From: Dysgonamonadaceae bacterium
GTDB taxonomy: Bacteria > Bacteroidota > Bacteroidia > Bacteroidales > Azobacteroidaceae
NCBI GenBank assembly: GCA_031261015.1
Contig: JAISKG010000215.1
Location: 1 to 17,430, forward strand
Reading direction: 5' to 3'
DNA: 17,430 nt
Below the pieces are notes generated by a model, which worked only from the letters and a program-made list of their open reading frames with translations, did no database searches and was not told where the DNA came from. The position numbers and the translations under genes are program-made. Shown here in pieces: positions 6,442 to 6,471 of the stretch. Positions within the stretch are counted from its first letter, which is position 1, and each line of letters opens with the position of its first letter.

Positions 6442-6471
6442 AGAGAGAGAGAGAGAGAGAGAGAGAGAGAG
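6442..6471 (+). repeat. (AG)15 dinucleotide microsatellite
   Basis: There are fifteen perfect AG units with no interruption, flanked by TT and TTCGCAGG. Tracts this long are prone to slipped-strand change in bacteria and are classic contingency-locus material when they lie in a promoter, leader or coding sequence. This one lies in the presumed leader of the T9SS surface-protein gene. Confidence 0.97.

Follow-up and report, generated by a model that had tools for sequence, protein, structure and literature searches.

A perfect (AG)15 tract stands between a promoter and the gene for a 1212-residue surface protein in the DNA of a Dysgonamonadaceae bacterium, and raises the question of whether, and by what route, the number of its units controls that gene. 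The sequence analysed here, referred to as the window, is the whole 17,430-nucleotide stretch of contig JAISKG010000215.1 in which the tract lies. An initial annotation had proposed a contingency locus for the surface protein, and had favoured altered leader length or folding as the way in which the tract would act.

Layout of the leader in the window

Inspection and translation of the window bore out the main structural claims of the initial annotation. The tract is a perfect run of 15 AG units. The promoter proposed upstream of it fits the Bacteroides consensus TTTG / TAnnTTTG, as given in part of PMC7366714. The ORF that begins with the ATG at 6362 crosses the tract and ends after 43 codons at the TAA 6491–6493, and the frame reached by loss of one AG unit or gain of two is open to 6753, as had been stated. 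Two features had been overlooked. Adding one unit, or removing two, leads into a frame that is open to 6776 and ends 12 nt short of the ATG at 6789, and the open stretch contains a predicted intrinsic terminator. Two of the three post-tract frames are open, with stops at 6493, 6753 and 6776. The predicted terminator hairpin (6570–6601) has 14 pairs and a folding energy of –22.0 kcal/mol and is followed by a T run; the stop at 6493 lies 76 nt upstream of it. The features of the region are collected in Table 1.

Table 1. Leader module of the window and the gene behind it (window coordinates)
Feature	Position	Strand	Basis
Promoter, TTTG 6299–6302 and TACCTTTG 6322–6329	6298–6329	+	Sequence; consensus in part of PMC7366714; like the promoter 5′ of most copies in the same genome
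Leader ORF in its present short (putative OFF) state, 43 codons, TAA 6491–6493	6362–6493	+	Frame kept in 90 of 100 loci
Conserved stretch 5′ of the tract, AATTTCC...GGAAATTAGCGGAATTATGTT, possible hairpin	6403–6441	+	Comparison of copies
(AG)15 tract, proposed frame switch	6442–6471	+	Sequence
Read-through frame A (n – 1 or n + 2 units)	6472–6753	+	Frame translation
Read-through frame B (n + 1 or n – 2 units), stop 12 nt short of the gene	6472–6776	+	Frame translation
G/C-rich alternating stretch, 3′ of the tract and 5′ of the terminator; many other copies have a similar one	6515–6537	+	Sequence
Intrinsic terminator (predicted), hairpin 6570–6601 and T run	6570–6606	+	Folding
Dispersed repeat containing inverted repeats, 3′ of the terminator and 5′ of the gene; present too in other copies and in some relatives	about 6613–6726	+	Sequence search
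Putatively controlled gene; its 1212-residue product has an IgGFc_binding domain and a weakly scoring T9SS type C tail	6789–10427	+	ORF and profile scans

The dispersed repeats between terminator and gene vary in number and arrangement from copy to copy of the module; both read-through frames are nonetheless open across them. A GTG ORF at 6525–6776 was considered as a gene and rejected: it spans the terminator and the repeats, and its stop is that of read-through frame B. Comparison of the whole window with Rfam at gathering thresholds returned tRNA only, and no known riboswitch family.

The tract is part of a repeated leader module

The (AG)15 tract is part of a repeated leader module and not a stray microsatellite. 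The source genome, a 2.0 Mb draft in 284 contigs that is 72% complete, contains eleven tracts of at least nine AG units. Each has at least 14 units and all eleven lie in the same module, which exceeds chance. A twelfth copy, on contig C87, has 7 units, and the module recurs in other Bacteroidales, including cultured Dysgonomonas. Its elements follow one order: promoter, leader ORF ending in ...LERERER, (AG)n, usually an intrinsic terminator, and then a surface-protein, receptor or regulator gene. Contig C270 starts so close to its tract that no more than the final 7 nt of the leader are on it, and contigs C209 and C210 end 78 nt past theirs. The family promoter is present 5′ of most copies in the source genome; it is absent at C210 and lies off the contig at C270. 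At C210 (L047, G000:C210, 8364–8580) the leader is found directly behind a tRNA-His gene (8364–8438), and may be co-transcribed with it.

An Rpn-family gene (TIGR01784; 5374–6297 in the window) ends 144 nt 5′ of the tract both in the window and at C75 (L042), where it is 69% identical. No further match to it was found among the 104 upstream stretches searched.

Relatives were searched in two ways. A 511-base query gave matches in 22 of 58 genomes (21 relatives and the source genome), some of them to the dispersed repeat only. Thirty-five stretches were fetched, one of which was C87 of the source genome. Three were dropped from all counts, G026:C22 with no tract of at least 7 units, and G029:C100 and G018:C130 with a tract but no leader. 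The remaining 32 were kept beside the eleven copies of the source genome, and G004:C76 and G031:C108 were retained despite poorly fitting leaders. A pattern consisting of the pre-tract stretch and (AG)7 was also run across 84,980 named species. It matched at least 110 stretches, from which 80 loci were taken; 19 of these duplicated earlier ones, giving 104 loci in all. Among the matches listed were D. hofstadii DSM 104969 with 8 of the 80 loci, Dysgonomonas BGC7, 511, 521, ZJ279, PF1-14, Marseille-P4677, UBA7710 and UBA10850, 'Prevotella sp. 10(H)', Candidatus Azobacteroides MAGs, two Bacteroidia bacterium genomes, and MAGs labelled Dysgonamonadaceae, Prevotella or Tannerella. Many of the matched MAGs are presumably of termite-gut origin. 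Even samples gave the exact pattern in 5 genomes out of 393 for the order and in 1 out of 296 for the phylum, the latter being the source genome itself; as the pattern is strict, both figures are lower bounds.

The leader is conserved as a reading frame

Leader conservation was assessed in the 100 loci that have enough upstream sequence. In the LERERER frame, an ATG lying 60–110 nt 5′ of the tract with no stop in between was present at 90 loci, so that the repeat lies, as in the window, within an upstream leader ORF that has its own start. The other two frames gave 2 and 0 loci, and at 10 loci the in-frame ATG was missing. The last ~70 nt of the leader were open at 96, 2 and 0 loci in the three frames, the LERERER frame being the first. 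The commonest distances from ATG to tract were 80 nt (28 loci) and 77 nt (27 loci). The ends of the leader peptides are similar across genera, with ...NYLEISGIM, ...NIQNLDVSEFF and ...FSSENLEVSS.L each followed by LERERER. The tract itself consists of alternating Arg and Glu codons in any frame, and contains no stop in any of them; its length therefore sets only the frame that follows.

About 20 nt 5′ of the tract (within 6403–6441 of the window), the stretch AAAATTTGG..GTTA is conserved at the nucleotide level, silent sites included, in Dysgonomonas and other loci. It is possibly a pausing signal, a binding site or an RNA hairpin. Folding of the pre-tract stretch gave mean z-scores of –2.75, –2.00 and –1.95 in three groups relative to mononucleotide shuffles, and one column pair (–32/–18) covaries in the first group. 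Support for an RNA-structure role is modest and differs between the groups.

Read-through frames past the tract are open more often than expected

The sequence behind the tract was examined wherever 110 nt or more was available, which gave 86 loci. At 82 of these the first stop came no more than 30 nt past the tract. The usual picture is that one frame closes shortly behind the tract and one or two others run on into or beyond the terminator, in many cases almost as far as the gene. A predicted hairpin and T run at –9.5 kcal/mol or lower was present in 62 of the 86 loci and no hairpin passing this threshold was found in 24, the threshold and the limits on stop distance having been set after the hairpin results were viewed. 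A frame with its stop within 10 nt of the hairpin, in it or past it was present in 61 of the 62 terminator loci (33.5 in dinucleotide shuffles, s.d. 3.3), and 44 loci had a frame that passed the hairpin altogether (shuffles 17.2, s.d. 2.9). Both a reaching frame and an early frame were found in 57 (shuffles 28.7). At L177 no frame reaches the detected hairpin, two frames running for 169 and 191 nt with the hairpin at 213. Four of the 62 loci (G013:C269, L105, L137 and L162) have no frame that stops more than 20 nt ahead of the hairpin, that is, no clear OFF frame.

The longest frame covered on average 0.74 of the distance to the gene, compared with 0.38 in shuffles, in the 66 loci with a usable gene start; twelve loci with an unreliable gene call or a direct fusion, and two with N, were omitted. 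Singly, 29 of the 66 loci gave p < 0.05, and the combined p was 2e-24, which overstates the evidence because copies within a genome are related. At L105, L111, L134, L137 and L146 the longest frame was not longer than in shuffles. Four of these loci have a hairpin with the later stops inside it, and L146 is without one. Stops were also counted in eight copies of the source genome, excluding the final 50 nt ahead of the gene. The two long frames contained 0–3 stops each, all near the far end, the third frame contained 3–15 along its length, and the reverse frames 1–18.

Tract phase and tract length

In the source genome the tract leads into the short frame in 10 of the 11 long-tract copies, including the window, and also at C87, making 11 of 12; the exception is C75, which is in a read-through frame. 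The early-stop frame varies among these copies and tract length tracks it, with 14 or 17 units as opposed to 16, 19 or 22 units according to the type of downstream sequence. The binomial probability of early-stop phase in 10 of 11 copies is 1.3e-4 if each tract took its phase at random, independently of the others, and a third of the frames were OFF; as the copies of a genome are related, this figure overstates their independence. Across the 62 terminator loci, 27 are predicted to be ON and 35 OFF. C75, the only copy of the source genome in a read-through frame, is also the one that shares the upstream Rpn gene of the window.

AG numbers were unequal in 14 of the 17 locus pairs whose flanks are at least 85% alike on both sides, and two pairs with identical flanks have 28 versus 12 and 14 versus 11 units. 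The comparison is between copies inside a genome and not between cells of a single strain, and tract lengths were taken from assemblies, many of which are draft MAGs. Such differences would be expected if the tract changed quickly and its surroundings slowly.

A proposed repeat-switched attenuator and its alternatives

A regulatory logic into which these features fit has been described for the pil1 and pil3 operons of S. gallolyticus (Danne et al. 2014). There, GCAGA repeats lie in a leader ORF; the short frame ends 39–49 nt before a terminator and gives low expression, and the other frames end just before, in or beyond the terminator and give high expression. Experiments in which the leader start was mutated, stops were introduced or the terminator was deleted back this logic in the parts of PMC3894217 drawn on here. 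Because the module fits the pil1-type logic, we read it as a repeat-switched attenuator of transcription, and from its sequence and this analogy we consider it quite probable that it is phase-variable. We infer the following course of events. RNA polymerase would start just past 6329, and ribosomes at the leader ATG. The length of the tract would select the frame in which the ribosomes leave it. With 15 units they would stop at 6493, the terminator would fold and the transcript would end (OFF). With one unit more or one fewer they would translate through 6570–6601 and almost to the ATG of the gene, the hairpin would be blocked and the gene transcribed (ON). Slipped-strand mispairing would alter the number of units at random and so toggle this ribosome-coupled antitermination in living cells, each copy of the module switching independently.

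The sequence supports one part of the earlier interpretation well, namely that the surface-protein gene at 6789 has a contingency locus; it does not support the mechanism that was favoured. An action of the tract through the length or folding of RNA or DNA, by spacing or by pairing with CTCTTC, and not through the reading frame, seems very unlikely. In the window the tract and the CTCTTC...CTCTT that follows it can form a hairpin (–10.9 kcal/mol), but the partner is not conserved, CTCTTC being missing past the tract at C34, C120, C152, C278 and C249. What is conserved is the reading frame, and a length or folding effect leaves unexplained both the leader frame kept at 90 of 100 loci and the selective opening of two frames beside a third with 3–15 stops. 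The frame through the hairpin had been set aside as unlike a protein; with translation of the terminator as the proposed signal, its product need not look like one. An assembly artefact or a neutral microsatellite is scarcely credible. The draft is fragmented and several of its contigs break off at a tract or shortly past one, but the module is present in genomes of named Dysgonomonas isolates, with leader and frames conserved.

The tract might instead restore or break a single ORF in which the leader is fused in frame to the downstream protein, a classical translational switch. In the Mycoplasma mod gene 12 or 10 AG repeats are in frame, according to part of PMC3498834, and frames running into the downstream ORF occur at L140 (4646 nt), L153 (4567 nt), G004:C76 (758 nt, a regulator) and G059:C28, all of which look, from their sequences, like direct fusions. 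In the window, however, all three frames stop before 6789 and the tract is outside the frame of the switched protein, and at most loci the frames are closed by stops ahead of, or close to, the start of the gene. Even at L140 and L153 a signal-peptide-like start lies well inside the fused frame, so that the fusion would not be a normal export substrate. We regard such a switch as highly improbable for the module. It is unlikely, too, that read-through translation owes its effect less to melting of the terminator than to relief of Rho-type polarity or to translational coupling, with ribosomes delivered to the start of the gene. The close approach of frame B to the gene ATG would suit such a route, and L120, L121, L175 and L176 have no above-threshold hairpin within 260 nt, yet have a frame open for 430–576 nt to about the gene start. 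Against it stand the hairpin and T run found at –9.5 kcal/mol or lower in 62 of 86 loci, and the Dysgonomonas loci L134, L137, L142 and L160, in which the longest frame ends inside the hairpin, far from the gene. For the four hairpin-less loci, Rho-type polarity would be a natural variant of the attenuator.

At L140 and L153, both from Candidatus Azobacteroides MI.4_1, the tract frame continues into a surface-protein ORF of ~1500 codons. These loci are possibly a form between the attenuator and a classical in-frame switch.

We put forward a wider version of the attenuator model only tentatively, and think it more doubtful than not. The pre-tract motif and the shared leader end may mark a common signal for pausing, or a common factor, through which ribosome and polymerase are coupled, and the independent copies might run much of the surface of insect-gut Bacteroidales (Dysgonomonas and relatives) as one tunable regulon, not as unrelated contingency loci.

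Genes behind the module

The product of the gene at 6789–10427 contains an IgGFc_binding domain (E 6.5e-35) and scores 21.5 bits for a T9SS type C tail, under the cut-off of 40. Scans of six other putatively controlled genes of the source genome found Ig-like and mostly FG-GAP domains, and one of the six products, which is complete, has a T9SS type A tail above cut-off. In all, 79 downstream proteins were predicted by script, part of the ORF calls being unreliable, and 37 of these were scanned with Pfam, long proteins from other genomes being trimmed to 900 residues. A TonB-receptor plug (SusC-like) was found in 9 of the 37 and FG-GAP in 8. There were 3 NusG-like regulators, 3 sigma-70-type factors and 2 proteins with Fib_succ_major; IgGFc_binding, Ig domain only, HU-HIG, WG repeat, DUF2436/CARDB, GH88 and GT25 were found once each, and 5 proteins had no domain above cut-off.

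The NusG-domain genes are preceded by the AG leaders L070, L088 and L091. We take these genes to resemble the UpxY antiterminators of capsule operons; if they do, the three loci would suggest capsule switching by slippage and not by promoter inversion. Leaders L148, L173 and L177 precede the genes for sigma-70-type factors, and at these loci one switch might therefore govern further genes.

Relation to known systems

In the E. coli pyrBI and rph-pyrE leaders, the terminator is prevented from forming when a ribosome translates as far as it or across it. The outcome is set by nucleotide supply in those leaders, and would be set by repeat number in the AG module. Random switching of the surface in Bacteroidales is familiar from the invertible promoters of Bacteroides and from UpxY-type capsule control. 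Site-specific inversion is used there, whereas slippage and attenuation are proposed here.

The closest likeness is to pil1/pil3. So far as the parts of PMC3894217 used here describe them, those operons share with the module repeats inside a leader ORF, a repeat number that sets the frame, control of a surface structure, and a short frame that ends before a stem-loop terminator; the window would have two ON frames and one OFF frame. A stem-loop terminator between leader and gene is likewise predicted in the module (6570–6606 in the window). The unit is AG here and GCAGA there, and the hosts are Bacteroidales and Streptococcus; we claim a likeness of logic, not descent. The end of the AG leader peptide is common to several genera and to unrelated genes, and the source genome has 12 copies, compared with the two operons described in that part of PMC3894217. 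The streptococcal system has been dissected with mutants, whereas the AG module is known from sequence alone. With Mycoplasma mod, as presented in part of PMC3498834, the module shares AG slippage that shifts the frame to a stop just after the repeats; the tract lies within the switched gene there and in a separate leader here.

The class of mechanism is known, and the AG module is apparently an unrelated Bacteroidales version of it with many loci per genome. A search of the open-access literature found no repeat-switched leader attenuator in Bacteroidetes, Dysgonomonas or Azobacteroides, PMC3894217 being the sole precedent found. As far as these searches show, the presence in Bacteroidales, the AG unit, a leader common to unrelated genes and the many loci per genome are new. 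If the model is correct, repeat-switched attenuation extends beyond two Streptococcus pilus operons to Bacteroidales, where its use would span surface proteins, TonB-type receptors, NusG-like regulators and sigma factors, and ON and OFF states could be predicted from genomes by counting AG units. The idea is directly testable, since Dysgonomonas isolates are in culture. The module also offers a route to recognising leaders that are translated only to hold a terminator open.

Elsewhere in the window, a perfect heptanucleotide repeat (TCAATTT, 4.9 copies, 12283–12316) lies inside the ORF at 10940–13603, which by eye looks like valyl-tRNA synthetase. A slipped 7-base unit would shift the frame of this ORF.
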